Source: Wocania ichthyoenteri Th78 (GTDB taxonomy: Bacteria > Bacteroidota > Bacteroidia > Flavobacteriales > Flavobacteriaceae). Taken from it: 64,000 nucleotides of DNA. The DNA lies in the NCBI RefSeq assembly GCF_000789235.1, contig NZ_KN525716.1, positions 3,516,100 through 3,580,099 of the forward strand. The letters run 5' to 3'. The notes below the pieces were generated by a model, which saw only the letters and a program-made list of their open reading frames with translations, had not been told where the DNA came from and did not search any database. The position numbers and the translations under genes are program-made. Positions 7,186 to 45,262 of the stretch are shown piece by piece; positions within the stretch are counted from its first letter, which is position 1; each line of letters begins with the position of its first letter.

Positions 7186-7357
7186 TACTGCCTACATTGG
7201 TTATTTTTTTTGATAAACTCAACGTTAATTCTTTAAAAAGGGTGAGTTTAAGTTGTAAAAGCATGCTGCCTTAGTCGCAGATCCTTGATCAGCTTGTTAG
7301 CCCTAAACTTGTTTTTAAGGAGTTTATACAAAACTTTATACCGGTGTAGGCTTTTTT
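7186..7357 (+). ncRNA. Probable 6S-like RNA (6S-Flavo type)
   Basis: The gap between zapA and rny contains a long closing stem: gcctacattggt at 7190-7201 pairs over 12 bp (two wobbles) with accggtgtaggc at 7340-7351. A T-run (7352-7357) follows directly, as in an intrinsic terminator. Inside, aaactca near 7215 pairs with tgagttt near 7243, leaving a large unpaired central region. Size (about 170 nt), the extended rod with a central bubble, and the position after zapA fit 6S RNA, which binds RNA polymerase holoenzyme. The covariance model was not run. Confidence 0.55.
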
Positions 7358-30591: not shown

Positions 30592-32640
30592 ATGAAAGAT
30601 TTTATAAATAAGTTTTACCGAAACCATTCTTTAATTTACAAAGGACTATTGTTTATATGCACTACGGTTTTAATCGTGTATTTATTCCCAAAAAGCGGAA
30701 AATTTAAATATAATTTTGAAAAAGGGAAACCCTGGCAATCCGAAAATTTATATGCGCCTTTTAATTTTGCCATTAAAAAAACTGATGAAGAAATTGCTAC
30801 TGAAAAGAAATTAGTTAGAGACAATTCGATATTATATTTTAACCTAGATAATGCTATTGAATCTGAAGTTAAGGATCAATTTGAAACTCAATTTAAAAAC
30901 TCTTTTTCTGATTCTATTCCAGAATTTGATTTAGATAACTTGTTTAAAACTGGAAATTTAATCATCAAAGAATTATATCGATTTGGTATTTTGAATGAAG
31001 ATTATAATTTTTCTGATAATAAGGTTATAGCTTTGCTTGATGACCGTGTAGAGAAAGAAAAGGTGTTATTCTCTAATTTAATTAAGCAAGATGAGGTTGT
31101 ATTGGTTATTGAAAAAGTGCTTTCAAATCAAAATTTGTCTAACTATAAAAACAGCTTCATATCACTTTTTTTCGATTTAGTTGAGCCAAATCTTGTTTTC
31201 GATAAATCTACAACCGATAAGGTTTTACAAGAGGAATTTGATAAAATAGCCTATGTAAGAGGTAGTGTTGAAAAAGGAACTTTAATTATTTCTAAAGGAG
31301 AAGTTATTGAAGGTGATAAATATCAAAAATTAAAATCGTTACAATCTGAATACGAATCGCAGGTTTGGAATAAATCAAACTATAATTGGATATTGTTTGC
31401 TTACACATTGTTGGTTGCTTTAGCCTTATTAATGTTGTTATTATTTCTTCGAAAATATAGACCTGATGTGTTTGAAAACAATACTAAAGTCACCTTTATT
31501 TTTTTCAATATTTTTTTAATGGTTTTTATAACAACGTTGGTTGTAAATTACAATTCTAAATATATTTACGTGGTGCCAATTTGTATTCTACCATTAGTTT
31601 TTAAAGCCTTTTTCGATGCTCGTTTAGGACTATTTGCACATGTAATTACGGTGTTGTTATTAGGATTTATAGTGCCTAATAGTTATGAGTATATGTTTCT
31701 TCAAATAATTGCAGGAATTGTAACTATTTTAACGGTTTCAGAATTGTATAAAAGGGCGAATTTATTTATTTCTGTAGGTCAAATTACTCTAATTTATATC
31801 GTGGCATATTTTGCTTTTTTTGTAATACATGAGGGTACTGTTGAAACGATTAAATGGGAAACCTTTATTTGGTTTATACTTTGCGGACTTGCCACTTTAT
31901 TTGTACAACCATTAATTTATGCTTACGAAAAACTTTTTGGATTAGTATCAGACGTGTCGCTTTTAGAATTGTCTGATACCAATTCAAAATTGCTTAAAGA
32001 ACTTTCTAATAAAGCACCAGGAACATTTCATCATTCATTAAATGTTGCTAATCTTGCTGAAGCATCTGCTAATGAAATAGGAGCAAATGCCATGTTAATT
32101 AGAGTAGGTGCTTTATATCATGATATTGGTAAAATGAAAAACCCGACGTATTTTACCGAAAATCAATCTACAGGAATTAATCCACACGATGAATTATCAG
32201 CAAAAGAAAGCGCGAAAATTATAACTGATCACGTTATAAATGGAATTGAAATTGCTAGAAAAAATAATTTACCAGATCGTGTAATAGATTTTATTAGAAC
32301 ACATCATGGGACAAGCGTAGTCTACTATTTTTATAGGAAAGAAAAAGAACTACAAAAAGAAGTCGATAAGTTGGGTTTTAGCTATTCTGGGCCAAAGCCT
32401 TTTAGTAAAGAAACGGCTATTTTAATGATGTGTGATAGTGTAGAAGCGGCATCTAAAAGTTTAAAAGAACCAACATCTACAAAGATTGATGCTTTTGTTG
32501 AAAATATTATAAACAAACAAATAGAAGAAGAGCAATTTTTAAATGCCAATATTACATTTAAAGAAATTCAGTCGATAAAAAAAGTGCTAAAACACAAGCT
32601 TGCAAATATTTACCATTTGCGAATTGAATACCCTGAATAA
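30592..32640 (+). CDS. 7TM-HD (PgpH-like) probable cyclic-di-AMP phosphodiesterase
   Basis: The 682-residue protein has one N-terminal transmembrane helix (about 18-33), a large extracytoplasmic 7TMR-HDED-type domain (about 40-265), seven helices (about 270-450) and a cytosolic HD domain. The HD residues are visible: HHSLNVANLAE (about 481) and LYHDIGKMKNP (about 508), then IRTHHGT (about 568). The family member PgpH hydrolyses c-di-AMP. The layout here is complete. It stands alone before two tRNA genes. Confidence 0.88.
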   Translation: MKDFINKFYRNHSLIYKGLLFICTTVLIVYLFPKSGKFKYNFEKGKPWQSENLYAPFNFAIKKTDEEIATEKKLVRDNSILYFNLDNAIESEVKDQFETQFKNSFSDSIPEFDLDNLFKTGNLIIKELYRFGILNEDYNFSDNKVIALLDDRVEKEKVLFSNLIKQDEVVLVIEKVLSNQNLSNYKNSFISLFFDLVEPNLVFDKSTTDKVLQEEFDKIAYVRGSVEKGTLIISKGEVIEGDKYQKLKSLQSEYESQVWNKSNYNWILFAYTLLVALALLMLLLFLRKYRPDVFENNTKVTFIFFNIFLMVFITTLVVNYNSKYIYVVPICILPLVFKAFFDARLGLFAHVITVLLLGFIVPNSYEYMFLQIIAGIVTILTVSELYKRANLFISVGQITLIYIVAYFAFFVIHEGTVETIKWETFIWFILCGLATLFVQPLIYAYEKLFGLVSDVSLLELSDTNSKLLKELSNKAPGTFHHSLNVANLAEASANEIGANAMLIRVGALYHDIGKMKNPTYFTENQSTGINPHDELSAKESAKIITDHVINGIEIARKNNLPDRVIDFIRTHHGTSVVYYFYRKEKELQKEVDKLGFSYSGPKPFSKETAILMMCDSVEAASKSLKEPTSTKIDAFVENIINKQIEEEQFLNANITFKEIQSIKKVLKHKLANIYHLRIEYPE

Positions 32641-32730
32641 ATTTTACAAAATATTAAATAAAATAGTTGCGTTCTTACAGATGATATGTTACATTTGCAT
32701 CCGCAATTTTATTGCAAAGTTCATAAAAAA

Positions 32731-32818
32731 GGAGAGGTGCCTGAGTGGCCGAAAGGAGCGGTTTGCTAAATCGTCGTACCCCAAAAGGGTACCCGGGGTT
32801 CGAATCCCCGTCTCTCCG
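32731..32818 (+). tRNA. tRNA-Ser (GCT)
   Basis: The 88-nt gene has acceptor arms ggagagg and tctctcc with a G discriminator. It has a D-loop, an anticodon loop ttGCTaa, a long variable arm (gtaccccaaaagggtac) typical of class II Ser tRNAs, and a T-arm with ggggttcgaatcccc. The anticodon GCT reads AGC/AGT. No CCA is encoded. The next tRNA begins 19 bp downstream. Confidence 0.95.
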
Positions 32819-32837
32819 CAATAATAGATAACCAAAT

Positions 32838-32912
32838 CGGGGTGTAGCGTAGCCCGGTTATCGCGCCGCGTTTGGGACGCGGAGGTCGCAGGTTCGAATC
32901 CTGCCACCCCGA
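32838..32912 (+). tRNA. tRNA-Pro (TGG), island integration target
   Basis: The 75-nt gene has acceptor arms cggggtg and caccccg with discriminator A, an anticodon loop ttTGGga and a T-arm with gcaggttcgaatcctgc. The anticodon TGG reads CCN proline codons. Its last 12 bases plus one are repeated at 61014-61026, marking it as the attachment site of the 28-kb island. The tRNA stays intact on the left side. Confidence 0.95.
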
Positions 32913-32913
32913 C
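32901..32913 (+). other. attL: left attachment repeat of the genomic island
   Basis: The sequence ctgccaccccgac covers the 3' end of tRNA-Pro and recurs exactly at 61014-61026. The integrase gene lies 225 bp inside this repeat, as expected for a tRNA-targeted element. Confidence 0.8.
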
Positions 32914-32935
32914 GAACCTAGTAATAGGTAGCATC

Positions 32936-32973
32936 AAAACACTGTTAATCGTATGATTATCAGTGTTTTTTGT
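32936..32973 (+). terminator. Terminator after tRNA-Pro
   Basis: The arms aaaacactg (32936-32944) and cagtgtttt (32961-32969) pair perfectly and run into further T residues. It would end the tRNA-Ser/tRNA-Pro transcript. Confidence 0.75.
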
Positions 32974-33024
32974 TTTTACACATTTTATTTGATATTAAAT
33001 AAAAGCATCTAATCTCAATAAAAA

Positions 33025-33045
33025 GGTGTGCAAATCGGTGTGCAA
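33025..33045 (+). repeat. Putative integrase arm-type sites, left end
   Basis: The 9-mer ggtgtgcaa occurs twice in tandem (33025-33033 and 33037-33045). The composite gtgtgcaaatcggtgtgca (33026-33044) recurs with one mismatch at 60936-60954 near the right end, in the same orientation. Short tandem sites near both ends fit binding sites for the arm domain of the integrase. Confidence 0.5.
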
Positions 33046-33137
33046 TTGTTCACTGAAAATGTAGTAACTTTAAAGAACTTTAAGACATAATTTGACTTTC
33101 GTATTTACAAATTAATGTTTAATTAAAGTCATTTAAA

Positions 33138-34382
33138 ATGAAAACAAAAAGCACCTTCACGATTATTTTCTTTACAAGAAAATCAAGAAGTAATCCCAAT
33201 CAAATTTCCATCTATATCCGTATTACCGTAAACGGCAAACGTTCAGAAATGAGTTTAAAACGAAGTATTGAACAAAACCAGTGGGACAATACTAAAAATA
33301 GGGGCAGAGGCAATTCAGAAAACGCTAGAATACTAAATGCCTATTTAGATGGGGTTTATAACAAACTACTTCAATGCCATAAAGAACTTATAGAAGAAGA
33401 TAAGGTGTTGTCCTCCGATGCCATCAAATCCCGATATTTGGGAGAAGATGACAATAGTAAAACCTTAAAAGAACTCATCGCTTATCACAATGGCAATATG
33501 GTTCATGTCCTGAAAGCGGGAACAATGAAGAACTATTATACAACGGAGCGCTATTTACAGAAGTTTTTAAGGAAGAAAAAAAGATTAAAAGACATCTATT
33601 TGAAACAATTGAACTTTAGGTTCATTACAGACTTTGAACACTACCTAAGAACCTACAAGAACAAGAAAAAGCAATTGATGCTATCCAATAATGGGGTGAT
33701 GAAACATTTGGAGCGATTCAAAAAAATGATAAACCTAGCCATAAAACTGGAATGGATGCATAAAAATCCATTCAGTCAATTTCAACTAAAATATGATAAA
33801 TACGATAGAGCGTATTTAAACGAAAGAGAACTGGAATTGTTAGAAAACACAGAATTTAAAATCGAACGCTTACAGAAAATAAAAGATTGCTTTGTGTTTT
33901 CGTGTTATACAGGACTATCCTACATTGATGTAAAAGAACTGGCCGAAAGCCATATCATAAAAGGCATAGACAATAATAATTGGATTTACACAAAACGAGA
34001 AAAAACAAATGAACAGGTAAAAGTGCCCATACTCCCAAAAGCTTGGGCAATATTAGAAAAGTATAGGGTCGACACAGAACAGAATATTACAATGAATTTG
34101 TTGCCCATAAGTTCCAACCAAAAGACTAATGCTTATTTAAAGGAAATTACAAAAGCTTGTGGTATTTATAAAAATATTTCTTTTCATGTCGCTAGGCATA
34201 CGTTTGCAACAACTGTGATGCTGTCCAATGGCGTGCCTATAGAGACCGTGTCTAAATTGTTAGGACATGCTAAATTATCCACTACACAAATTTACGCTAG
34301 GGTAGTGGAAACTAAAATTAGTGAAGATATCAGCAATCTTCTAGAACGCTTTAAACAAAAAGAAGAAAATAAAAGTGCTTAA
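33138..34382 (+). CDS. Tyrosine integrase of the genomic island (IntDOT-like)
   Basis: The 414-residue protein is a Bacteroidota-type mobile-element integrase with an Arm-DNA-binding domain (about 5-95, with YIRITVNGKRSEMSL), a SAM-like core-binding domain (about 105-205) and a catalytic domain. Catalytic residues H350, R353 (HVARHTFA), H377 (LLGHAKLSTTQIY) and nucleophile Y386 are present. The first catalytic Arg is replaced by Ser261 (CYTGLSYIDV), as is known for IntDOT-type enzymes. It would recombine the tRNA-Pro 3' end with the circular island. It is closed by a strong hairpin at 34408-34462. Confidence 0.93.
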   Translation: MKTKSTFTIIFFTRKSRSNPNQISIYIRITVNGKRSEMSLKRSIEQNQWDNTKNRGRGNSENARILNAYLDGVYNKLLQCHKELIEEDKVLSSDAIKSRYLGEDDNSKTLKELIAYHNGNMVHVLKAGTMKNYYTTERYLQKFLRKKKRLKDIYLKQLNFRFITDFEHYLRTYKNKKKQLMLSNNGVMKHLERFKKMINLAIKLEWMHKNPFSQFQLKYDKYDRAYLNERELELLENTEFKIERLQKIKDCFVFSCYTGLSYIDVKELAESHIIKGIDNNNWIYTKREKTNEQVKVPILPKAWAILEKYRVDTEQNITMNLLPISSNQKTNAYLKEITKACGIYKNISFHVARHTFATTVMLSNGVPIETVSKLLGHAKLSTTQIYARVVETKISEDISNLLERFKQKEENKSA

Positions 34383-34407
34383 AAAAACAATTTTAAAGCC
34401 TAAAAAG

Positions 34408-34462
34408 AATTTCCTTTCCATACGCTCCTCAAAAATGACAGGAGTGTATGGAAAGGAAATTT
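34408..34462. terminator. Long hairpin after the integrase
   Basis: The arms aatttcctttccatacgctc with ct (34408-34429) and ag with gagtgtatggaaaggaaatt (34440-34462) pair over about 22 bp with one wobble. They close a 10-base loop. It can terminate the integrase transcript and also the oppositely directed dCas12f/guide-RNA transcript. Confidence 0.8.
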
Positions 34463-34494
34463 TAAAATTAAAAAACCATGAATACCAATTTTAT

Positions 34495-34618
34495 AGGAAT
34501 AATTTAGAGCAATCAAAAAAATAAGAGAGCCCACGCGTTGTATATGCTGTTCACATTCAGTGAGTGTTATTATCAACCTCACCTTGCGGGTGTACAAGCA
34601 CCCTCGTAACCAAATTGG
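34495..34618 (-). ncRNA. Putative guide RNA A downstream of dCas12f
   Basis: Directly after the dCas12f stop codon, the minus strand has a structured stretch: a gggtg-caccc hairpin (34586-34601 region), then ctcac pairing with gtggg. It ends in gtgggctctcttatt, the reverse complement of aataagagagcccac at 34520-34534. The same 15-bp end occurs at 36684-36698 with a different following sequence. In TnpB/Cas12f guide RNAs the scaffold overlaps or follows the gene and the guide lies 3' of a fixed scaffold end. By that logic the guide here would start at 34519 (tttttgattgctctaaatt). Boundaries and expression are inferred. Confidence 0.45.
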
Positions 34619-35716
34619 TTAATCTATAATAATTTCAATGCCTGCTTTCTCGGCTTTGTATTTTATTTTGGTCATTAACTCATAATAGCCCCAGTTCCTT
34701 AATACAAACGCCTCTTCTTTGGCTATCCCAATCTTGTCTTCCTGATTTAATAGAATGAGTGTTCCTGCCTGATGTTTAATGCAAAAATCGATTAATCTTC
34801 TGCTATATACATGAATACGATGGGATACATAATTATTTTCGACTTTGCTGAGTTTGTTCACTGCCTTTAATTTTCTTTTGACTCCTTTGCCCGATTTGGA
34901 ATAGGTAGCCCCTACCTGTGCTCTTTTAAGGGCTGCCTGTATAGCTAATCTTCTGTGGAGAAACTCTTCCCTGGTGCCGATAGTGAGTCTGGCATTAACG
35001 GTTTTAACTACGATGGGATATTCAATAGACAGGGATGCCTCTGCAATCACTTCTGGTCTTAAGGATTGCTTTTCTTTTTCAATTTCAAATATCGGTAGCC
35101 AGAATATTTTGCCGTCCTTTAATTTAATATGGGAGGTACATAGCCTGGTTTCTCCCTTTATTACGCGCTCCAATAGTATTCTTTTGTCGGTATAGTCCTT
35201 TCCTAAATACGTCTTAAAAGGAATTTGAAATAAACGAAAGCAAAAAGCCCTTTTCTCGTCATTATAAGATAATCCGCTTATGCCCTCCAAACCAAATGGA
35301 AAAGCCATATCTCTCCTGAAGTTTTTAAGGGAACGTTCACCTTTCCAGTATTCTGGGCTGTTTTTCTTAAAAGAAGTGATTAAGGTATTATTCAAACTGG
35401 ACAATATGTTTGTAGGGATTTCACCTTTAAAGCGATTTGATACCACGCGATAAGTGGTATTGATACGGGAGCGCTGCAATATTCCGTGCTCATCTTTTTT
35501 TTCATCAGCTAATTTATACTTTATCCCCTCTGACAGATAAAAGAATTCCTTGATCATTTCCTGTACGTAGAGATGGGAAACGATAAGATTGGCAGCTCTA
35601 AAACATCGGTTTTGCCACTGATAAAGTTTGTCCAAGGCTTCCTTGCGTTCTTCTTGGGTAGGAAGGTCGACCAATAGCTGAACCTTTCGGGTTAGTTTGA
35701 GTGTTGGCTTTTCCAT
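34619..35716 (-). CDS. Nuclease-dead Cas12f/TnpB-like protein (dCas12f)
   Basis: The 365-residue protein has the N-terminal helical/WED layout and a degenerate RuvC domain of the Cas12f/TnpB family. The RuvC-I strand (residues 222-236, VIAEASLSIEYPIVV) has Ser228 where the catalytic Asp of a GxDLGxxYP motif belongs. The bridge segment NNYVSHRIHVYSRRLIDF (294-311) and WGYYELMTKIKYKAEKAGI (342-360) are clearly family-like. In RuvC-II (GTLILLNQ, 318-325) the catalytic Glu is replaced by Leu323. The protein stops at Asp365, before the zinc ribbon and RuvC-III, so it cannot cut DNA. It starts 1 bp after the stop of a sigma-factor gene (TGATATG), so the two are translationally coupled. I infer RNA-guided recruitment of that sigma factor, as reported for dCas12f-sigmaE systems of Bacteroidota. 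Confidence 0.85.
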   Translation of the reverse strand: MEKPTLKLTRKVQLLVDLPTQEERKEALDKLYQWQNRCFRAANLIVSHLYVQEMIKEFFYLSEGIKYKLADEKKDEHGILQRSRINTTYRVVSNRFKGEIPTNILSSLNNTLITSFKKNSPEYWKGERSLKNFRRDMAFPFGLEGISGLSYNDEKRAFCFRLFQIPFKTYLGKDYTDKRILLERVIKGETRLCTSHIKLKDGKIFWLPIFEIEKEKQSLRPEVIAEASLSIEYPIVVKTVNARLTIGTREEFLHRRLAIQAALKRAQVGATYSKSGKGVKRKLKAVNKLSKVENNYVSHRIHVYSRRLIDFCIKHQAGTLILLNQEDKIGIAKEEAFVLRNWGYYELMTKIKYKAEKAGIEIIID

Positions 35717-35717
35717 A

Positions 35718-36503
35718 TCAAGCGGATTCTAATTGCTGCCCATGTTTCTGCTGTATGAGTTTATGGGCTATCATAAATTCTTTGTGAACTTCCTTTTCGG
35801 AGAGGTTAAGTGCTTTGGCGATGGACGTAAAGGAATATTTCTTTTCACATCGGAGCTTTAATACTCTTGCTTGTTCCTTGGTCATAACATCTTGAACCTT
35901 AATTTTAATAGCGGGCGTTTGTTCAGTTTCAAGCGCACTTCCTTGATTAATAATTGTTTTAATATCCTCAATAGCTCGTTTCACTTCATTACTGGTTTCA
36001 TTAATACTTGTTCCCATAACCTCGGCAATAGCCTTATATTGAAAACCATATTTTAAACAGAGATCAATTAAATGCCTTCTTTCAGCGTTCAATAGAGGTA
36101 ATACACTTTTGATTCGATTGAAGGTTTTTTGTTCCGATTCCTGATCTTTTAGAGTTTCAGACGCATTTACGGGATCATACCCCACCATATAGTCTTGGTA
36201 ATTGTCGTAATCTTCTAACGAATGGACATGCCTAAAGAACTTATTTTTAGGTTTACTATAGTATGAAATACACTCTCTTTTCATCACAAACCTTAAAAAA
36301 TAGAAAATATGCTTAGGTGATTCTACCCTGTCCCTATGAATCCATAATTTTAAAAAAGTATCTTGAACCAAGGATTCAATTACAAAAGGATCTTTGATAA
36401 GTTGCTTACCAACCCAAAAGATACGTCTGCTGTATTCAGAATGAATCTGTTCTAAAGCAGAGGGGTCACCATTTTTTAATAATTTAAAGTTACTGTGTGG
36501 CAT
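35718..36503 (-). CDS. ECF-like sigma factor coupled to dCas12f
   Basis: The 261-residue protein has sigma region 2 (about 14-82: [35 protein letters not shown]) and region 4 (about 132-185: [28 protein letters not shown]). After a linker (186-205) comes a second HTH-like segment (about 206-252: [37 protein letters not shown]). Typical ECF sigmas are 160-200 residues, so the extra C-terminal HTH is unusual. No anti-sigma gene is nearby. The gene is coupled to the dCas12f gene with a 1-bp gap, which suggests that the protein is recruited to promoters by dCas12f and a guide RNA. Confidence 0.85.
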
Positions 36504-36615
36504 AACAGACCTCGTTTAAATTGATGATAGTTTTCACCATAATGATATTAAATAGCTGATACGAGTTCTTACAGTTTATAAAGAGAAGCTAGCTTTGAAA
36601 CAGGTTGAGAAGAAT

Positions 36616-36637
36616 GCCTTTTTCTACAAAAAAAGGC
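36616..36637 (-). terminator. Hairpin downstream of putative guide RNA B
   Basis: The minus strand has gcc plus a T-run, a short loop, then an A-run plus ggc (36616-36637), a stem of at least eight pairs. It could end a short transcript that starts near 36815, before the sigma-factor gene. Confidence 0.4.
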
Positions 36638-36639
36638 GT

Positions 36640-36816
36640 GGAACTCAACTTACTGCATCAGAGGTACTGGTATACCGAGGAACAATAAGAGAGCCCACAC
36701 CCATAGGCGTGAGCATCTTACTTATCATCTCGTTCCTTTAAATTACCAGTTTTCTGATACGAGATTCAAAGCGAATGCTTCAAATATTTTATATGAAGAA
36801 TCGCAAAAATATGTAA
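36640..36816 (-). ncRNA. Putative guide RNA B upstream of the sigma factor gene
   Basis: On the minus strand atctcgt pairs with acgagat (around 36763 and 36730). Next, gctcacgcc pairs over nine pairs with the gggtgtgggc side around 36695-36714. The segment then ends in gtgggctctcttatt (complement of 36684-36698), identical over 15 bases to the end of locus A. The sequence after it differs from A, starting gttcctcggtataccagtac, so this would be the guide. A TATATTTG box (36824-36831) upstream and a hairpin (36616-36637) downstream fit an independent small RNA of about 150-180 nt. It is inferred from repetition and folding only. Confidence 0.45.
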
Positions 36817-36823
36817 TCTAAAT

Positions 36824-36831
36824 CAAATATA
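36824..36831 (-). promoter_or_regulatory. TATATTTG -7 box for guide RNA B / sigma operon
   Basis: The minus strand reads TATATTTG, a perfect match to the Bacteroidota -7 consensus TANNTTTG. A TTG lies about 14 bases upstream, shorter than the usual 17-23 spacing, so the -33 part is uncertain. Confidence 0.4.
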
Positions 36832-36846
36832 GTAAAAAGCATTCAA

Positions 36847-36864
36847 TTGGAAATATATTTCCAA
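36847..36864. promoter_or_regulatory. 18-bp perfect palindrome, candidate XRE operator
   Basis: TTGGAAATATATTTCCAA is a perfect inverted repeat in the gap between the divergent sigma-dCas12f operon and the XRE regulator gene, 43 bp before the regulator start. Position and symmetry fit an operator that controls both directions. Confidence 0.5.
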
Positions 36865-36906
36865 AGAATATTCTTGAATAAATGCAACCTTGTCCAAAAC
36901 AAGTAA

Positions 36907-37176
36907 ATGAATCCAAAGAAAATAAATATCACTTTAAAAGAAATATTGTTAACCATAGGTAGTAAAATTAAAGAAGAAAGAGAAAGACAAGGATATATAT
37001 TGGAAGATATGGATGCCTTATGTGATATTGATCCAAGTGCGTTTAGCAAAATTGAAAGAGGAGTTTATGATAACATGACTCTAAAGACACTGATTAGAAT
37101 ATCTATTGCATTAAAATTGAAATCTTTTGATGTATTTGGTTTTGAATTTTCTTTAGAACAATTTATTGAAGACTAA
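36907..37176 (+). CDS. XRE-family helix-turn-helix regulator
   Basis: The 89-residue protein has one HTH_3 domain (about 13-70) with the pattern IGSKIKEERERQGYILEDMD, then DIDPSAFSKIERG, where the recognition helix sits. It should bind DNA as a dimer. It is divergently placed to the sigma/dCas12f operon across a 403-bp gap with a perfect palindrome and the guide-RNA B candidate. It is therefore a plausible autoregulator and repressor of that system. Confidence 0.85.
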   Translation: MNPKKINITLKEILLTIGSKIKEERERQGYILEDMDALCDIDPSAFSKIERGVYDNMTLKTLIRISIALKLKSFDVFGFEFSLEQFIED

Positions 37177-37655
37177 TATTTCTAATCAAATATTTTATGA
37201 GCTTCTGCGGTACTATCTAGAAATTATCCTGTTTTTCTGTTAAAATCATTTTTTATTTTTTATCTCAAACACAAATATCAAATAAATTCCATTCCAGCCC
37301 ATTCCCACTACATTCCGTAAGCACTACATTTCGGGAAAAGCGCTTCATTAAAAAGGTCTTGAACATGAGTCCAAAATGCAAAAAAACATTTTAGACTAAA
37401 GTTCGCTTGATGCAGAATTTCAGTTCCAAATTTTTTGTAATTTCATATTAGACGTTCAAATTCTACTTACTTAAAAAAGCAATACAATAATATATTCATC
37501 AATATTCCCGAAATATAAACGTCGCAAAATATTTCTCGAAAAAGGGACGGCATAAAGCCGTTCGTGCCTCACTTTTTATACGTTTCCTTTTCACTCCAAA
37601 ATTTTGTCTTCCGTTTGGTGTGTGCTCAAATATTGTTTAACTAAAAATTTTAATT
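37177..37655. other. Intergenic region, 479 bp
   Basis: I find no convincing gene. A short tandem resemblance (cactacattccg near 37307 and cactacatttcg near 37323) and a small hairpin (acggcataaagccgt, near 37546) are present. The end holds the leader of the 132-residue protein gene. The function of the two near-repeats is unknown. Confidence 0.4.
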
Positions 37656-38054
37656 ATGGAAACAAAATCCAACGGAACAGCAAAAAAAGAAACAGCAACC
37701 GTTAAAAAAGACGTTCAAAAGCAATTAACGAAAGAAGCGATTGGACAAACGCAACAAGTCAAACAAGCCATTGTAAGCAAAGCGACCATTGATTTGGTAG
37801 AACGCATGCAAAGGTTTGAGAAGTTACGAGGACTGGCAACCCAACGGGAACGTTTGGTGCAGACCTTAAACGAACTCACCAAGTTCAATTACAACCAAGG
37901 TGATTCGGCTTCGTTTTACATTCGGGATTCTCATAATTTAGAGTTTAAAACGACCAATACCAATTTGATTAAGTTGGTAACCACGCATTTACAATCGACT
38001 TTAGAAGCTCGTAAGCAAGAAATTGAAAATGCTATTATACAGTTTGAACTGTAA
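37656..38054 (+). CDS. Conserved mobile-element hypothetical protein
   Basis: The 132-residue protein has a Lys/Thr/Gln-rich, low-complexity N-terminus (1-40). A helical region with LVERMQRFEKLRGLATQRER (about 48-67) and ASFYIRDSHNLEFKTTNTNL follow. It has no known domain that I recognise. It is the kind of short protein found next to mobilization genes in Bacteroidota islands, and here it precedes the oriT-like region. It ends at a terminator at 38079-38105. Confidence 0.6.
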   Translation: METKSNGTAKKETATVKKDVQKQLTKEAIGQTQQVKQAIVSKATIDLVERMQRFEKLRGLATQRERLVQTLNELTKFNYNQGDSASFYIRDSHNLEFKTTNTNLIKLVTTHLQSTLEARKQEIENAIIQFEL

Positions 38055-38078
38055 CCAGATTTTTCAATGAATCATCAA

Positions 38079-38105
38079 AACCTATTCGAAAGAGTAGGTT
38101 TTTTT
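38079..38105 (+). terminator. Terminator after the 132-aa gene
   Basis: The stem cctattc (38081-38087) and gagtagg (38092-38098), with one wobble, has a 4-base loop and a T-run after it. Confidence 0.75.
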
Positions 38106-38399
38106 ATGTTTTAATTTTATTGTTGAAATAGAACAACTCTCCAGATGTCGAGTTGTTTCCAGTTCAACAATCCATCATGTCTTTTTTTAATCAATTTTTA
38201 AAAAAAACAAAAATGATTAAGCCAAAAAATCAACAATAAAAAATTTATGAATTATTGTATCGGTATATTTCGAATCTGACGCTTCTTTTTTCAATATTTC
38301 CAAAAACTATGATTTTTAGCATCAAATTACATCATTTGATACCAAAGGATATTTTTGATTTACTCATAAAATTCATACATTAATAGGACTAGTAATCTA

Positions 38400-38560
38400 G
38401 TAAATAAGCAACTGATTTTTTATCAGTTGTTGGAGGATTTTGTCAGCCTTTTGCTGACAAGATTTGATAAGCAAGAGGGTAACACGCAGAGCGATGTTAC
38501 GTAATTCATTTGCTCCGCAAGGCCCTGTATTTAAAGGGTTTTGGAAGTTTTAAGATTTGG
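38400..38560. other. oriT-like region upstream of the mobilization gene
   Basis: The region carries three close hairpins: caactgat...atcagttg (38409-38429), ttgtcagc-ctttt-gctgacaa (38440-38460) and gtaaca...tgttac (near 38479-38500). A less AT-rich stretch with ccctgtatttaaaggg follows. Hairpin clusters just upstream of BfmA/BtgA-type genes are where transfer origins lie in mobilizable elements. No nick site can be assigned from sequence alone. Confidence 0.4.
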
Positions 38561-38627
38561 AGCGTTTTTAAGTTTTTACTAAAAAATGCAGCTAGCCCAG
38601 TAAAACCAATAAAATTTTTACTAAAAA

Positions 38628-39182
38628 ATGGATAAAGGACATGAAAAAGAAGCGTTTGTAACTGTAAAAATTAAAGCTGCAACAGCTCAGAAATTTAGAA
38701 TATTTTGCAAGAACAATGCAGCATCTCAATCTATGAGCTTGCATCAAATGATCCAGTTCTTTGAGATTAATGGGATTGCGCCCGCAGATAATTTGGGAGA
38801 TTCCATTGCCAAATTGGAGGGTAAAATAAATAAAAGGACCAATGCTATAATTGCAATTATCAAGGACATTGAAAAAAATCAGACCAAACCAACTACTGCC
38901 ATGTTGTTATCCCTATTCGAAGAAAAAGTAAAACAGGAAAAACCCACATTGGTGGAAAAGAAATTTGCAAAGGTGCAAACTGATAAAGAATTTATAGAGG
39001 TCACCGTACCTAAAATTAGATATGAACGATTAGAGTACAACATGAAATCGGTTAAAAAAGATTTTATTTATGTGCTGGATAATGTCAAGGTTGTAAAGAG
39101 CAGTTTCGGGAAGGGATATCTAAAATTGGAACTTACTGAGAGTGAACTTGTAAAATTTAGAAGAAGCATAAATAATTATTAA
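38628..39182 (+). CDS. BfmA/BtgA-family mobilization accessory protein
   Basis: The 184-residue protein resembles the BfmA/BtgA auxiliary mobilization family. It has an N-terminal ribbon/HTH-like part with VTVKIKAATAQKFRIFCKNN, then SMSLHQMIQFFEINGIAP and KRTNAIIAIIKDIEKNQTKP, where the IEKxQxKPT segment is characteristic. These proteins bind oriT and assist a relaxase. No relaxase gene follows. The next 300 bp hold nothing convincing, then an unrelated copper module begins on the minus strand, so the transfer module is incomplete. Confidence 0.8.
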   Translation: MDKGHEKEAFVTVKIKAATAQKFRIFCKNNAASQSMSLHQMIQFFEINGIAPADNLGDSIAKLEGKINKRTNAIIAIIKDIEKNQTKPTTAMLLSLFEEKVKQEKPTLVEKKFAKVQTDKEFIEVTVPKIRYERLEYNMKSVKKDFIYVLDNVKVVKSSFGKGYLKLELTESELVKFRRSINNY

Positions 39183-39473
39183 ATAAAAAACACCATTTTA
39201 ATAAGTAGACTGATATTATATGATTCTCAAAATTAAAAGTTAAAGTTGCTCAAGGATAGGTATAGTTACTCCACTACACTTTCGAATATCTTGAAAAGGC
39301 ACATATTAATTTGCTATTACTTTTCATACAGCATATATGTAATAAAAAAGCACAAGTTAGATAACTTATGCTTAAAACTGCTATTTTTTAATTCAGTTCT
39401 TTTTAAGGCAAAAGCGGCTCAAGTTAGTACTTATACCGCTATTACTTATATAGTATGCTACATTCGGTGATTA
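39183..39473. other. Region after the mobilization gene, no supported gene
   Basis: Where a relaxase gene would be expected, this stretch holds only a short frame (39246-39470) of atypical composition, rich in Tyr, Ile and Lys, with no recognisable domain. I do not call it a gene. A deletion of the relaxase at this point would explain the arrangement. Confidence 0.4.
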
Positions 39474-39683
39474 TCACACTTTTTCAATTTTAAACCCCAT
39501 TTTTTTTACGGCATTAACAATGTCTTCTTCTGAAGTAGACCTAGATTTAACTGAAAGAAATTTTTCAGTACTCTCCAAATCCACATTCCATTTTTCAATT
39601 CCTTTTTCATTGTTTAGTTGTGGGCTAACCTTTGACAAGCATCCTGTACAATTAATGTTTGTTTTAAATTTTAAATTTTCCAT
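39474..39683 (-). CDS. HMA-domain copper chaperone-like protein
   Basis: The 69-residue protein is a single heavy-metal-associated domain with the metal site NCTGCLSKV (Cys12 and Cys15), the secondary-structure pattern of CopZ/Atx1 and the typical ending IVNAVKKMGFKIEKV. It should bind Cu(I) in the cytosol and pass it to the CopA ATPase. It belongs to the copper module on the same strand but is separated from it by an IS982-family element. Confidence 0.85.
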   Translation of the reverse strand: MENLKFKTNINCTGCLSKVSPQLNNEKGIEKWNVDLESTEKFLSVKSRSTSEEDIVNAVKKMGFKIEKV

Positions 39684-39708
39684 ATGACGTGATTTCTATT
39701 TTAATTAA

Positions 39709-40692
39709 TTAACCCGTTGTGCATTATGATTTAAAAGAAAAAAGTTGTCCATCTTACTGATAATCAGTAACTTGTTTTAGCGATAAAACATTAATTATGA
39801 ACAACTTAAATGCAAATTACGAAAGAATATTGGAAGTATTAAGAAAAATATCAAAAGAGCAGCTTTTAGCTTATCAAAGACGACAACCCAAACTGAGTGA
39901 TTTGGAGTTGGTAAGCCTAAGCCTTACATCAGAATATATGGGTATAGATAGCGAGAGTAACCTATTTAGACAACTTCCTGATATCATTTCATCAAAAATT
40001 AACCGCAGTGTTTATAATCGTAGAAGAAGAAAGTTAGCAAATCATATTGATGCAATACGTTTAAAATTGGCTACTCATTTTAATGAATTTGAAGACTATT
40101 TCATTGTAGATAGTATGCCTTTAGAGGTTTGTAAGCTATCAAGAAGTTCTCGTTCAAGAATATGTAAAGAAGCTACTTATGTCTTTCCAGACAAAGGTTA
40201 TTGTGCTTCTCAAAGTGCTAATTATTATGGGTATAAATTACATGCTATTTGTTCTGTTAGCGGTATTTTTCAGAGTATAGATTTGAGTCCGGCATCTGTT
40301 CATGATGTGAATTATCTTAAAGATATTAAAGCACAAATTAGCAATTGCACTTTAATTGGTGATAGAGGTTATTTATCCGCAGAAATTCAACTTAACTTGT
40401 TTGATACTTGTAACATAAAGCTAAATACACCGATGAGAAATAATCAAAACAATTACAAAAAACAACCGTACATTTTTAGAAAATCGAGAAAGAGGATAGA
40501 AACTTTATTTTCTCAACTGTGTGACCAATTCATGATAAGACGCAACTACGCTAAGTCTTTTGAAGGCTTTAAGACCAGAATAATATCTAAAATAACTTCG
40601 CTAACTGTAATTCAATACATTAACAAATTTGTCTTTGATAGAAAAATAAACAATATAAAAATCAGCATTATTTAAAATGCACAACGGGTTAA
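39709..40692. mobile_element. IS982-family insertion sequence
   Basis: Perfect 17-bp terminal inverted repeats (ttaacccgttgtgcatt at 39709-39725 and its complement at 40676-40692) enclose one full-length transposase gene. The element is about 0.98 kb, the usual size for the family. No clear target duplication is seen. It lies between the chaperone gene and the DoxX gene of the copper module. Confidence 0.88.
39797..40675 (+). CDS. IS982-family transposase
   Basis: The 292-residue DDE transposase has the IS982 layout: an N-terminal region with LSDLELVSLSLTSEYMGIDS, the first catalytic Asp in FIVDSMPLEVCK (about 104), NYYGYKLHAICSVSG, the second Asp in LIGDRGYLSAEIQ (about 190), and the Glu in SRKRIETLFSQL (about 235). 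It appears intact. The gene fills the element between the inverted repeats, and its stop is 1 bp before the right repeat. Confidence 0.93.
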   Translation: MNNLNANYERILEVLRKISKEQLLAYQRRQPKLSDLELVSLSLTSEYMGIDSESNLFRQLPDIISSKINRSVYNRRRRKLANHIDAIRLKLATHFNEFEDYFIVDSMPLEVCKLSRSSRSRICKEATYVFPDKGYCASQSANYYGYKLHAICSVSGIFQSIDLSPASVHDVNYLKDIKAQISNCTLIGDRGYLSAEIQLNLFDTCNIKLNTPMRNNQNNYKKQPYIFRKSRKRIETLFSQLCDQFMIRRNYAKSFEGFKTRIISKITSLTVIQYINKFVFDRKINNIKISII

Positions 40693-40699
40693 ATGAAGA

Positions 40700-41080
40700 T
40701 TATTGTATAACTAAGTTTGTTAGAGCTTTCCTTTTTGATGAAAGCAAATAAATATGCATTAAAGCCACTAAAAGGCCCGGTACAATACCTGCGAGATCAA
40801 CTGCTAAATGAAATGCGATTATGCCATAGGTAACAGGAACCATCAGTAATAATCCTATAAGACTATACTTTCGAGTTAGTAACAACAGACCTGAAATTAC
40901 TTCTACAACTCCAACAGTTGGTAATATGAACTTATTTGCCATCAAACCGGTAAAGGCAGCTATTAAATCTTCATCCATGACATGGTTATGAGGAACAAAT
41001 TCAAAAAATTTATCCAAGCCAAATATTAAGAGACCAATGCCTAATATTAATCTTATTGTGGTATTAATTTTTGTTTTCAT
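40700..41080 (-). CDS. DoxX-like small membrane protein
   Basis: The 126-residue protein has four hydrophobic helices (about 8-25, 42-62, 68-88, 95-115) and the DoxX-type pattern LILGIGLLIFGLDKFFEFVP near the start. A conserved glutamate lies in VGVVEVISGLLLL. Such proteins are often found near redox or metal genes, but their biochemical role is not established. It is 95 bp downstream of copA on the same strand, within the copper module. Confidence 0.8.
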   Translation of the reverse strand: MKTKINTTIRLILGIGLLIFGLDKFFEFVPHNHVMDEDLIAAFTGLMANKFILPTVGVVEVISGLLLLTRKYSLIGLLLMVPVTYGIIAFHLAVDLAGIVPGLLVALMHIYLLSSKRKALTNLVIQ

Positions 41081-41174
41081 GAGTAAAATGTTTTAAGAAT
41101 TAATAAGCGCAAAGATATTTTGAGATAAAGATGTATCTCTTATGCTTTTTTGTAAATCTTTTGTGATATTTCGC

Positions 41175-43412
41175 TTAAAGTTTGCTTGATTTTAATCTTA
41201 AACTATTTGCGACAACAGAAACAGAACTAAATGCCATAGCGGCACCTGCAATCATAGGATCCAATAGAAATCCGTTAAAAGGATAGAGTATTCCAGCAGC
41301 TATTGGAATACCAATTAAATTATAAATAAATGCCCAAAACAGATTCTGACGAATACCTTTAACTGTTTGGGAAGATAGGTTGAACGCTTTTGGAATAGAT
41401 TCTAAATCTGATGTCATAAGTGTAATTTTGGCAACATCCATTGCAATATCAGATCCGTGCCCCATTGCTATGCTAATATCGGCTTGCGCCAATGCTTGGG
41501 AATCATTTATACCATCTCCAACCATAGCGACAATTTGACCTTGGTTCTGTAGGTTTTTAACAAAATTAGCTTTATCAGAAGGTAAAACTTCTCCTTTGTA
41601 ATCTGTTAACCCAACTTCTTTTGCAATCGATTTAGCAGTTTGGTTGTTATCACCTGTGAGCATATAAACTTTAATGCCTCTATTTAATAATTTGCTGATT
41701 GCAGATTTTGATGAAGCTTTTACTTTATCACCAATGGCAATAACAGCGAGAAATTGTTTGTCAGAAGCAAAAAATATAACTGTCTTTGATTTTTCTTGCC
41801 ATAATTTTGATTTTGCAATTAAAGTCTTGTTAAGTGCTATATTTTTTTCCTGCATTAATTTGAAGTTTCCCACATAGAATTTTTGTTTTTTAAAATCAGT
41901 AGCTTCAACCCCCTTTCCTGTAATACTTTCAAAATTATAAAGTTCAATAGGTGAAGTCCCCTTTTCTTTAAATTTTTTCACTACAGCATTTGCTAAAGGG
42001 TGTTCAGATTTGGCTTCAATAGACATTAAAATACTGGATAGTTCGTTATGATTTGTATTGTTAGCCCAAGAGAAGTTCGTAATAGTAGGTTTGCCTTCAG
42101 TAATAGTTCCTGTTTTGTCTAAAACAAGAGCATTAACCTTATGTCCCAATTCTAAACTTTCTGCATCTTTAATTAAAATATTGTTCTCAGCTCCTTTACC
42201 AACTCCAACCATAATTGCAGTTGGTGTAGCTAGTCCAAGGGCACAGGGGCATGCAATTACTAATACCGCAACCGATGTTAGTAAAGCATGTGTAAATGCA
42301 TCTTCACCGCCATTTATCATCCAAACTGTAAATGTTAAAATGGAGATGCTAATAACTATAGGTACAAAAATTCCAGCTATTTTATCTACTAATTTTTGAA
42401 CAGGAGCTTTACTGCTTTGCGCTTCTTGTACCATTTTGATAATTTGGGACAGTAAGGTTTCACTACCCACTTTTAGAGCTTCAAATTGAAAATTTCCTTT
42501 TTGATTAAGAGTTCCGGCAAATACTTTTTCTCCTTCATTTTTAGCAACAGCAACTGGTTCACCAGTAATCATACTTTCATCTACATACGAATGGCCTGAT
42601 GTAACTATCCCATCAACCGGAATTTTTTCACCAGGACGAACAACAATAATGTTACCTTTTTGCACAGATGTAATGCGTATTTCTTGCTCTTTGCCATTAA
42701 CAATAACCTTTAGTGTTTTAGGTTGAAGTCCCATAAGTTTTTTAATAGCTGAAGACGTGTTGGACTTGGCCTTTTCTTCCATTAATTTTCCTAAAGAAAT
42801 GAAAGTAATAATTACTGTAGCTGCTTCATAATAAACATGAGGATAAATACCTCTAGCATACCAAAAGTCAGAAAAAAGTGTGTTAAATAAACTAAATAAA
42901 AAAGCAATACCAGTACTTAAAGCCACTAAGGTATCCATATTAGCTTTTTTATGTTTAGCCTGCTTCCATGCATTTACATAAAAACCTTGACCAAAATAAA
43001 ATAGAATTGGTAATGATAAGCCTAATGAAATCCATTTACCAGGTATCCATTCCATAAAAAACATTCCAATGATGAATATGGGAAGTGTTAAAATTGCTGA
43101 CCAAATTGTCCTCAACTTTATATCTTGATAGTGTTTCTGTTGTAATTCAGCTTGTACATGTAGCGGATCATCTACATCTAATATAAGATCATAACCAACA
43201 CTTTGTAAACTGCTCTGTAAATCTGTCTTTTTTATTGAATTATCATATTCTACTAAAACAGAATTTGATGCAAAATTCACACTTGCTTTTGTAACTCCAT
43301 TTGTATTTGTCAAAATAGACTCTACACTAGACGCACAGGTAGCACAAGTCATTCCAGTTACAGGATAGGTTTCTATATGTACTTTTTTGCTTTCAGAGAC
43401 TACTGTATTCAT
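41175..43412 (-). CDS. copA: Copper-translocating P-type ATPase CopA
   Basis: The P1B-ATPase of about 745 residues has an N-terminal HMA domain with [11 protein letters not shown] (Cys23/Cys26), the A-domain TGEPVAV motif, the transmembrane [12 protein letters not shown] metal site, the phosphorylation site [11 protein letters not shown], the HP motif SEHPLA and the hinge [12 protein letters not shown]. The CPC motif and Cys pair indicate Cu(I) export. The open frame continues ten codons upstream (to 43442), but homologues start near [10 protein letters not shown], so I chose that Met. It lies next to an AraC-type regulator with a metal-binding N-terminus. Confidence 0.93.
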
Positions 43413-43504
43413 AATTATTATACTATTTAAATTATGATACAAAAGTCGGTAGGTAAGATTAATTATCTGTTATGATTTTCTGTATTGATTTTATAAGATT
43501 ATGA

Positions 43505-44074
43505 CTAAAGATTGTCCAAATGGTTATGACCTGGTTTTTTTTGTTTCTTAAATTGGGTTGGAGTCATTCCTGTTTCTTTTTTGAATTGAGAAGAAAGATA
43601 TGCTACACTACTGTAATCCATTTGGAATGCTATTCCTGATAAAGTAAGTTCATCATAAAATATTAACTCCTTTACCTTCTCAATCTTCTGGGATAACACG
43701 AATTTTTCAATAGTGACTCCCACTACAGATGAAAATAAACGACTCAAGGAACCATAGTCTTGATGTAATTGGTCACTTAAATAAGATGAATAGTTAATAT
43801 TTATAGGTTCTTTAGAATAGTGAATGGAATTAATAATTAGGGTTTTTATTTTACCAATTAACTTAGATTTATTGTCCTCTAACAACTCGAATCCTTTTTT
43901 AGAAAGTCTTTTATTAAGTTCAACTTTTTGCTCTTTGTTAACTTCTTTTTCAGTAATTACTTCGCCTAATCTAATTGAGCTAATATCTAGATTTAATTTT
44001 GTAAAAATATCTTCAACCGACTCAATGCAACGAGGGCAAACCATGTTTTTTATATTGATTGTCTTATTTTTCAT
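43505..44074 (-). CDS. AraC-family regulator with HMA-like N-terminus
   Basis: The 189-residue protein begins with an HMA-like segment (NIKNMVCPRCIESVEDIF, Cys13/Cys16). An AraC DNA-binding domain fills about 85-180 (LSRLFSSVVGVTIEKFVLSQ, the AraC signature at MDYSSVAYLSSQFKKETGMT and PTQFKK). It lies 62 bp upstream of the copA open frame on the same strand. It probably senses Cu(I) through the CxxC pair and activates the copper genes. AraC proteins with an HMA-type sensor are not the classic CueR/CopY type. Confidence 0.85.
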   Translation of the reverse strand: MKNKTINIKNMVCPRCIESVEDIFTKLNLDISSIRLGEVITEKEVNKEQKVELNKRLSKKGFELLEDNKSKLIGKIKTLIINSIHYSKEPININYSSYLSDQLHQDYGSLSRLFSSVVGVTIEKFVLSQKIEKVKELIFYDELTLSGIAFQMDYSSVAYLSSQFKKETGMTPTQFKKQKKPGHNHLDNL

Positions 44075-44241
44075 TTTCTTTTTATACTTATGTACAAAAC
44101 TTTTTATTTTGCTTTAAAGATTATTAATATTTTTTAACTCACAAAGGCTCTTTTTGTATTTGTTTTTACTGAGGTGAGTTTTTTAATTTTATAAAATTAG
44201 ATTTTACGCTCATCCGTCAATAAAATTGAACGATATTAATA

Positions 44242-44421
44242 ACGATTCTAATCCTAAAAGCATTAAAAACACAAGCTAAACATCCTTGGTATTTATCAAA
44301 TTTAGTCGCCTTTATTAGACTTAATCTTTTTGTTAAAGTATATCTACACAAATGGCTCGATAATCCTTTTGCAAAGGAACAACCACTACCAAATAAAAAT
44401 ACACAAGGGGTTCTTTTTTAA
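44242..44421 (+). pseudogene. C-terminal remnant of an IS4-like transposase
   Basis: A plus-strand frame without a start codon encodes KALKTQAKHPWYLSNLVAF, IRLNLFVKVYLHKWLDNPFA and KEQPLPNK and then stops. The RLNLFxxxxLxxWLDNPF pattern is typical of the C-terminus of IS4-superfamily transposases. The rest of the element is gone, so this is a relic marking an older insertion at the border of the copper module. Confidence 0.55.
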
Positions 44422-44443
44422 AATTCGAAAATCTAACCACGCC

Positions 44444-44635
44444 TTATTGTAAACTATATGATCCTATTTTTTTCGACGACGCACCCTGTGTATAGTGAAG
44501 TAAGTTGCGCTGAAAGTAAGCGATGAGTTCTTGGTTATCATCATTGTTTATATTATTAAATGCGCTATGGTATTCTTTAGTTAAGGGGGGGTGAAAATAT
44601 TCTCTTGTTTTCCCTAGCTCATCATAAGTAATCAT
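44444..44635 (-). CDS. Doubtful short ORF overlapping a cassette-like repeat
   Basis: The 63-residue frame has no recognisable domain. Its C-terminal part runs through a sequence (cactatacacagggtgcg on the minus strand) that closely matches the left arm of the fold-back element at 50279-50438. It is probably the decayed end of a former gene unit read into its 3' repeat, not an independent gene. Confidence 0.25.
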   Translation of the reverse strand: MITYDELGKTREYFHPPLTKEYHSAFNNINNDDNQELIAYFQRNLLHYTQGASSKKIGSYSLQ

Positions 44636-44711
44636 TTCTACAATTGCAGGAACATCGTTTTTTTTTTTGCTTTTCTAAATTCCATATATCATATTTCTAG
44701 GTTAAACTCTG

Positions 44712-45203
44712 CTAATTATGGTGCCTTCTTAAATGTTTTATTAATCCATTTTGGTCGTACTCAATTGACATTATTTGACTTGAGGTGTTTTCAATAACTT
44801 TATCCATGTGAAACGGCTTAACTTTGGCTTTAATGGTAATCTTTATAAAAGCTACATTTTTTCCTAGCATAATGTCATCAATAGATACTATATGATAATA
44901 TACCTTATTTTGAAGTTTGTCGATCATTCCCTTTCTAAATATTTCTTTATCGGTTATGATTACATTATACTTAATATGCTCATCAATAAAATCATCTGCA
45001 AAAAAGGATAAGAAGTAATCTATATCTTTTAAGCCACTGTGTGGTTGTTGCTTTGCACTATAAGCTTTAATAAAAGACTCGGTTTTTTTATGTAAATGAG
45101 GGTCTGTGCCATCTTGTGAGGATATACTATTAAGTTCTTTTTTTTGTCCAATTGCATGAAAGCTTATAATTAATGCAGAAACGAGTATTAATGTGTTTTT
45201 CAT
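44712..45203 (-). CDS. Exported NTF2/SnoaL-like protein
   Basis: The 163-residue protein has a signal peptide (MKNTLILVSALIISFHAIGQ) and a SnoaL/NTF2-type domain (about 38-163: FIKAYSAKQQPHSGLKDIDY, FLSFFADDFIDEH, and closing strands). The ligand is unknown. Its first 25 residues are nearly identical to those of the unrelated VOC-domain protein at 54205-54705, which suggests exchange of a signal-peptide module. It is one of the minus-strand single-gene units of the island. Confidence 0.75.
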   Translation of the reverse strand: MKNTLILVSALIISFHAIGQKKELNSISSQDGTDPHLHKKTESFIKAYSAKQQPHSGLKDIDYFLSFFADDFIDEHIKYNVIITDKEIFRKGMIDKLQNKVYYHIVSIDDIMLGKNVAFIKITIKAKVKPFHMDKVIENTSSQIMSIEYDQNGLIKHLRRHHN

Positions 45204-45262
45204 TTAGTTTTTTTATATATGGTGTTAGCAATATGTTTGGTTTCTATAAAACGGATCTTATA

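Follow-up and report, generated by a model that had tools for sequence, protein, structure and literature searches.

Why should a nuclease-dead Cas12f be encoded next to a sigma factor, and to which DNA would a guide RNA direct such a pair? The question is raised by a locus in a 64,000-nucleotide stretch of Wocania ichthyoenteri Th78 (contig NZ_KN525716.1, positions 3,516,100 to 3,580,099; the whole stretch is called the window, and its numbering is used throughout), where a gene for an extracytoplasmic function (ECF) sigma factor adjoins one for a truncated, nuclease-dead Cas12f (dCas12f). We found that the two proteins almost certainly belong to a known type of RNA-guided transcription complex. 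The best explanation overall, and probably the right one on the sequence evidence, is an island-borne RNA-guided sigma factor that would start transcription inside an attenuator leader. What is likely to be new is the site aimed at, a bistable leader in which the guide sequence forms the switch segment. The two genes are as follows.

34619-35716, minus strand: nuclease-dead Cas12f (dCas12f), 365 amino acids (aa), from the list of open reading frames (ORFs), PDB 9n9c (E=2.8e-195) and Foldseek.
35718-36503, minus strand: ECF sigma factor, 261 aa, with two sigma-4-like regions, from NCBIfam, Pfam and PDB 9n9q_C.

A sequence-only reading of the locus had described an ECF-like sigma gene lying 1 base pair (bp) from a Cas12f-like gene, and this was borne out by the two ORFs, with a gap of 1 bp between the sigma stop and the dCas12f start. 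Alignment to Cas12f proteins of known structure likewise bore out the proposed loss of the nuclease: the first Asp of RuvC is replaced by Ser228, the RuvC-II Glu by Leu323, and the chain stops where Cas12f continues into the zinc ribbon and RuvC-III. The stop codons of 32 relatives all fall within two codons of the window's. Residues 1-364 match the PDB chains named "Nuclease-deactivated Cas12f" (9n9c/9n9m/9n9o/9n9q, E=2.8e-195), and a Foldseek search with the predicted model, the fold check proposed earlier, ranked 9n9c (dCas12f-guide RNA complex, 73% identity) and 9n9m (dCas12f-guide RNA-DNA complex with a partial R-loop, 78%) first. The NCBIfam model guided_TnpB matched with E=1.7e-14 and 53.9 bits, under its cut-off of 100, and the sole Pfam match had E=0.14. 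The sigma factor matches NCBIfam TIGR02985 (3.6e-21), carries two region-4-like stretches (best Pfam matches at residues 130-179 and 206-239) and aligns to chain C (RpoE) of PDB 9n9q with E=9.3e-114 and 66% identity. That entry, released on 2025-12-24, is titled "Cryo-EM structure of the RNA-guided transcription complex".

Thirty loci hold a dCas12f relative of 68-91% identity (record titles include Salegentibacter, Leeuwenhoekiella and Muricauda), and relatives at 65-68% identity occur in 2 of 60 genomes searched. Among 299 sampled genomes of the family, 13 gave dCas12f matches, of which that in G023 is no more than a fragment and that in G317 is broken (G and L numbers are our labels for genomes and loci). 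The search for the same gene pair in relatives that had been suggested gave a positive answer beyond chance: of the 33 loci with a full-length dCas12f, 32 have the sigma gene next to it, and the 33rd (L020) has 30 bp of upstream DNA only. Of the sigma matches, those in L003 and L034 are split in two and that in L005 is truncated where the contig starts. In the phage and plasmid collections, all dCas12f relatives had less than 30% identity. One of the distant relatives lies in the phage record MT835745.1 (339-1448, minus strand; an unannotated faecal phage), with 27% identity over 99% of the protein.

Downstream of dCas12f, the locus encodes a guide RNA with two parts.

34536-34608, minus strand: guide RNA scaffold with three covarying stems (alignment A6).
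34520-34535, minus strand: guide region CGTGGGCTCTCTTATT, which varies across units and matches a segment of the leader.

A guide RNA unit follows dCas12f in 32 of the 33 loci with a full-length gene, the sequence of the other (L025) ending 14 nucleotides (nt) past the gene; the unit stands within about 20 nt in 28 loci and further away in L021, L024, L027 and L031. We aligned the 46 distinct units among 52 extracted (A6). The three stems of the scaffold are paired in 96.1% of cells, and 10 of 18 pairs have changes on both sides; when the partners were slid as a control, pairing reached 53% at most. Folded as a single sequence, the guide RNA is unremarkable (z -0.60 and -1.31), so it is the alignment that speaks for its structure. 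Rfam at a lax limit gave two sub-threshold matches here. The variable stretch comes after the scaffold end ..ATACAAC(G). We considered whether the conserved start of the guide, CGTGGG, belongs to the scaffold and rejected this because units with other starts exist. Five Leeuwenhoekiella loci hold 2-6 units with differing guides, some of the extra units being preceded by remnants of the dCas12f 3' end, and the guides of the arrays in L023, L032 and L026-L031 are unlike the leader (AAGCCTTCCCC.., GCGTGACATC..). Two further arrangements were seen. In L127 (G074), a second dCas12f copy of 65% identity is followed by four units with one common guide, GCGTGGGCTCTCTTATT, and in L004 (G023) a single guide-RNA-like unit, its guide unrelated, comes after a C-terminal fragment of dCas12f.

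Matches to the guide led us to an element upstream of the operon.

36626-36781, minus strand: leader element, putative bistable attenuator with the guide target site inside (59-copy alignment A2; covariance model match 36633-36781).
36684-36700, minus strand: guide target segment, 1 mismatch in 17, common to both folds of the leader (pattern search; A2).
36804-36811, minus strand: TAnnTTTG-like motif, which we take to be a Bacteroidota promoter motif (conserved TATTTTTG / TATATTTG stretch in A2).

Searching the organism's own genome with the guide and its leading G (17 nt, up to 3 mismatches) yielded seven matches, versus 3 for the reversed control: the guide RNA itself without mismatch, a site 180-200 nt upstream of the sigma start with 1, a site 296 kilobases (kb) off with 2, and four others with 3. 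Both sites outside the guide RNA with up to 2 mismatches fall in copies of one leader element. The same was observed on a larger scale in 27 dCas12f genomes, in which 78 sites had up to 2 mismatches, versus 8 for the reversed pattern. Classification of 77 sites gave 29 guide RNAs, 36 leaders and 12 others (one of these a guide RNA by inspection); all 46 sites with at most 1 mismatch belong to guide RNAs (21) or to leaders (25), and every site classed as other has 2 mismatches. Across 27 genomes and 65 elements, guides fit the leaders of their own genome with a mean of 13.74 of 16 positions, versus 13.15±0.17 for other genomes (0 of 5000 shuffles), by a statistic that ignores kinship and leaves out four leader rows without a clear segment. 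In G084, a divergent leader, GCGTGTCATCCGACTT, is accompanied by a divergent matching guide, GCGTGTCATCCCACTT. The base preceding the guide-matching segment is G in 59 of 59 leader copies; a 5'-G is the minimal target motif reported for the dCas12f-sigmaE system. Taken together, these matches make it very likely that the guide aims at the leader.

What kind of element is the leader? It is about 150 nt long and can be drawn in two ways.

36628-36702, minus strand: terminator fold, stem 36634-36702, T-run 36628-36634 (-31.4 kcal/mol, z -5.23).
36655-36760, minus strand: antiterminator-type fold (centroid fold; covariation in A2).

Across the 59 copies, the antiterminator-type fold is paired in 92.9% of cells, 18 of its 31 pairs having changed on both sides (43% at most when slid). 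The incompatible second fold, an upstream hairpin plus the terminator, reaches 96.4% of cells paired, and both sides have changed in 10 of its 29 pairs (54% at most when slid). Because both folds were drawn from the window's copy, they have an advantage over the slid versions. The double changes are the better evidence; they are stronger for the antiterminator-type fold than for the terminator fold. At least 4 T occur in the 8 bases after the terminator stem in 56 of the 59 copies, and the alignment cuts the remaining three short. By their named pairs, the two folds have nearly equal median energies (-22.6 kcal/mol for the antiterminator, -23.4 for the terminator), and when the window's copy was folded freely (z -4.44), the minimum-energy fold was the terminator and the centroid the antiterminator. 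The guide-matching segment is used by both folds, and from the G before it to the terminator 3' arm the median distance is 46 nt. With two exclusive conserved folds, one of them a terminator with a T-run, placed upstream of an operon, the leader looks like a bistable attenuator. Rfam has no family at gathering threshold in the window's leader, nor any apart from tRNAs across 13 loci scanned; at a lax limit, three sub-threshold matches lay at the leader, all far below their cut-offs. We also considered the leader as a 6S RNA and rejected this, since no gathering-threshold family falls at the leader and Rfam places 6S-Flavo (RF01685, 112.6 bits) elsewhere in the window, at 7217-7325 on the plus strand.

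The covariance model found the leader in 57 of the 299 family genomes, namely 13 of 13 with a dCas12f match and 44 of 286 without (p=1.3e-10), figures that ignore kinship and come from a model and a profile built partly from sampled genomes. Without the two genomes in which dCas12f is broken, the leader is present in 11 of 11 (p=5.2e-9). This co-occurrence is partly linkage, because the leader often stands before the sigma-dCas12f operon itself. Counting only leaders away from dCas12f, we found them in 10 of 13 genomes (p=3.2e-6), and in 8 of 11 (p=7.6e-5) when the two broken ones were left out, so that by these counts the association stays clear without the linked copies. Of 27 dCas12f genomes reached via other loci, a set that by its coordinates apparently overlaps the family sample (G146, G196, others), 24 have the leader, linked copies included.

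After removal of six duplicates from 80 rows, 74 distinct leader copies remained, which were sorted by hand and most of which had been fetched for matching the guide or the model. The sigma-dCas12f operon follows in 22, and 28 have a SusC-like gene within 2.6 kb. The others stand before a protein of about 110 aa (4), before a 186-aa protein (3), at a contig end (4), before none of these (10) or are ambiguous (3). In L118 and L119 (G062) and L065 (G021), the leader precedes a gene for a 108-122 aa protein and then one for a short ECF sigma factor, of 175-185 aa in G062 and present as an 83-aa piece in G021, with no dCas12f seen; this may be a second sigma partner that takes the same slot. Pfam matched neither of two relatives of the small protein. 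In L070, L073 and L074 (G053), the leader is followed by a 186-aa protein with no convincing Pfam match (DUF1803, E=0.044, under the cut-off).

The surroundings of the operon in the window are those of an integrated element.

32731-32819: tRNA-Ser (ARAGORN).
32838-32913, plus strand: tRNA-Pro(TGG), the likely integration site (ARAGORN; a second tRNA-Pro with the same 22-nt end carries a sister island).
33138-34382, plus strand: tyrosine integrase of the island (Pfam Arm-DNA-bind_5, SAM_5, Phage_integrase).
36907-37176, plus strand: divergent Cro/C1-type helix-turn-helix (HTH) regulator (Pfam HTH_3, 1.1e-07).
37656-39182, plus strand: two small island genes, 132 and 184 aa (sister counterparts 134 and 177 aa, 89% and 34% identity).

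The tRNA-Pro and the integrase adjoin the gene pair, in keeping with the island setting proposed from the letters. The stretch 32837-34463 is 90% identical to a sister island at a second tRNA-Pro of the same genome (L275, L057; C1:3249622-3259147), which also has a leader copy. In the sister's cargo place lie a truncated SusC-like gene (288 aa), a 466-aa protein and a 505-aa protein, by eye thioredoxin-like and a membrane protein, respectively. With SusC-like cargo in the matching place of the sister, the sigma-dCas12f-guide RNA unit therefore occupies the island's cargo slot. A repeat of the tRNA-Pro end that would close the island was sought, and no second match with up to 3 mismatches was found in the window (longest exact match in 34500-46000, 10 nt). 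Of the other loci read, only three (L005, L006 and L007) have a related integrase immediately downstream, and in three more (L011, L022 and L034) it is 4-7 kb off; L002-L004 have flanks of 1.5 kb. These loci thus give no ground for calling the island setting general.

A small divergent ORF occupies the same place and strand, starting 87-130 nt from the leader, in 17 of 21 copies listed, and among five proteins from this position Pfam found an HTH domain in four and none in that of L002. The window's HTH protein and the sister's 117-aa protein at the same place gave no alignment (E=48). Between the convergent integrase and guide RNA lies an inverted repeat with 22-nt arms, 95% complementary (34408-34461), perhaps a shared terminator. 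Beyond the island genes, we noted by eye a transposase-like ORF (39797-40675, plus strand) and a metal-transporting P-type ATPase-like ORF (41175-43442, minus strand).

How might such a system act? In Bacteroidota, exapted homologues of Cas12f reportedly direct transcription by guide RNA; their motif is a minimal 5'-G, and the distance from the R-loop determines where transcription starts. From the proteins, the guide RNA, its matching sites, the two conserved folds and the co-occurrence, all read from sequence, we infer the DNA binding, start site, read-through and sign of regulation as follows. The dCas12f with its guide RNA would open an R-loop over the 16-17 nt that follow a G. It would also hold the sigma factor, and this would bring RNA polymerase and let it start at a fixed distance downstream, near the terminator 3' arm. 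The R-loop would sit on the segment common to the terminator and antiterminator folds of the leader RNA. An RNA begun there would lack the terminator 5' arm, and the polymerase would therefore read through without termination. The outcome would be positive autoregulation, and the SusC-like cargo that sister islands carry behind the same leader would be activated as well. We give this bypass of the attenuator an even chance of being right. On the broader proposal that the RNA-guided sigma factor is a trans-activator of an integrase-island family, its guide a copy of the switch segment of an apparently undescribed attenuator that is thereby skipped, our judgement is equally balanced, and so it is on the cargo that such a trans-activator would serve behind the leaders, namely SusC-like genes, small-protein operons and the sigma-dCas12f operon itself.

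The same parts might be arranged to opposite effect. An R-loop in the leader could block polymerase coming from an upstream promoter, with the sigma link serving something else, and the site does lie downstream of the TAnnTTTG-like motif, presumably a promoter. TldR proteins, nuclease-dead relatives of TnpB, are RNA-guided repressors according to PMC13418256. Against repression stand the sigma gene next to dCas12f in 32 of 33 loci and the sigma chain in the solved complex, and we regard it as unlikely.

Slightly less probable still is that the guide RNA acts on RNA, mimicking the terminator 5' arm and pairing with the nascent 3' arm, so that anti-termination would occur in trans and dCas12f would be an RNA carrier. 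The guide does equal the terminator 5' arm, whose partner is ATAAG..GAG..CCACGCC. This pairing, however, is broken by loops, whereas the guide pairs almost completely with the DNA strand. The relatives of known structure form an R-loop on DNA (9n9m) and join sigma in a transcription complex (9n9q), and a sigma partner would make little sense for an RNA carrier.

We hold it to be about as improbable that the guide-leader match is homology only, from a common ancestor or a structural motif, and that the leader is no working target. The leader does exist without dCas12f, and several guides differ from it; yet the guide slot is replaceable, the divergent leader of G084 is met by its divergent guide, and leader and dCas12f co-occur, leaders away from dCas12f included. 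That the dead protein and its sigma factor are decaying cargo is very improbable: the own-genome SusC target is cut short, and dCas12f is broken in G317 and a fragment in G023, but the reading frames are open in the window's dCas12f and 31 aligned relatives (32 sequences; mean identity per column 81%) and the guide RNA structure is conserved.

Several observations count against an RNA-guided start inside the leader, which we nevertheless prefer. The start-site distance of the dCas12f-sigma system is one that we assume, and the structure model of dCas12f has middling confidence (pLDDT 74, pTM 0.50). The leader occurs in 44 of 286 genomes that lack dCas12f and is therefore independent of it; conversely, three dCas12f genomes (G069, G085, G086) have no leader, and the sole leader is the operon's own in 3 of 13 (G033, G186, G214). 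Kinship enters neither the co-occurrence figures nor the guide-leader fit, and the fit is poor in some genomes (G033, G053, G066). The window's own target site is mismatched near the 5' end of the guide, and the G preceding the segment is also held by a stem. On the energy of the named pairs alone, the antiterminator is the more stable fold in the window's copy (-30.9 versus -25.0 kcal/mol). The SusC of the own-genome target is cut short at 288 aa. For the array guide GCCTTCCCCTATTAACC, the target search matched guide-RNA units only, and for the array guide GCGTGACATCTGACTT it found, beyond guide-RNA units, two sites with 2 mismatches, versus 4 for the reversed pattern.

An RNA-guided start inside the leader would give a known, though young, mechanism of activation a natural regulon and a defined structure as its target. 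The bypass, if true, would show RNA-guided placement of start sites overriding RNA-based attenuation in nature, and mobile islands could use it to switch on the cargo of sister islands. The leader, present in 57 of 299 sampled family genomes at about 150 nt, would be an RNA family outside Rfam. Hence, while the complex type is known, the attenuator target may be new.

Compared with known systems, the leader resembles attenuators of the trp and T-box type in having two exclusive folds, one of them an intrinsic terminator. Unlike those, it has no Rfam family at gathering threshold, and its switch segment doubles as the matching site of a putative RNA-guided sigma factor. With the CRISPR-Cas12f nucleases (9nzr Al3Cas12f, 8hr5 CnCas12f1, 7wju AsCas12f1), the window protein has the fold and part of the sequence in common, but it lacks the catalytic residues and the C-terminus, with Ser228, Leu323 and no RuvC-III setting it apart; no CRISPR array was seen at the locus among 20 of 27 direct-repeat families listed for 32600-40000. 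With TldR, the system shares a dead RuvC protein and a linked guide RNA. It differs in that its nearest chains are dCas12f and Cas12f and a sigma gene is linked, whereas TldR represses and is not known to have a sigma partner. The dCas12f-sigmaE complex (9n9c, 9n9m, 9n9q) is the closest, and we saw no difference in protein layout: the window has a dead, truncated Cas12f of 365 aa (73-78% identity), an adjoining ECF sigma factor of 261 aa like the RpoE of 9n9q (66%), a linked guide RNA and matching genomic sites after a G. The role in RNA-guided transcription that the sequence-only reading had proposed for the pair is thus supported by orthology, by the covarying guide RNA and by the guide-matching sites; the type itself had already been solved, and the present analysis adds a guide RNA, a leader as its likely target and a sister island to that reading.
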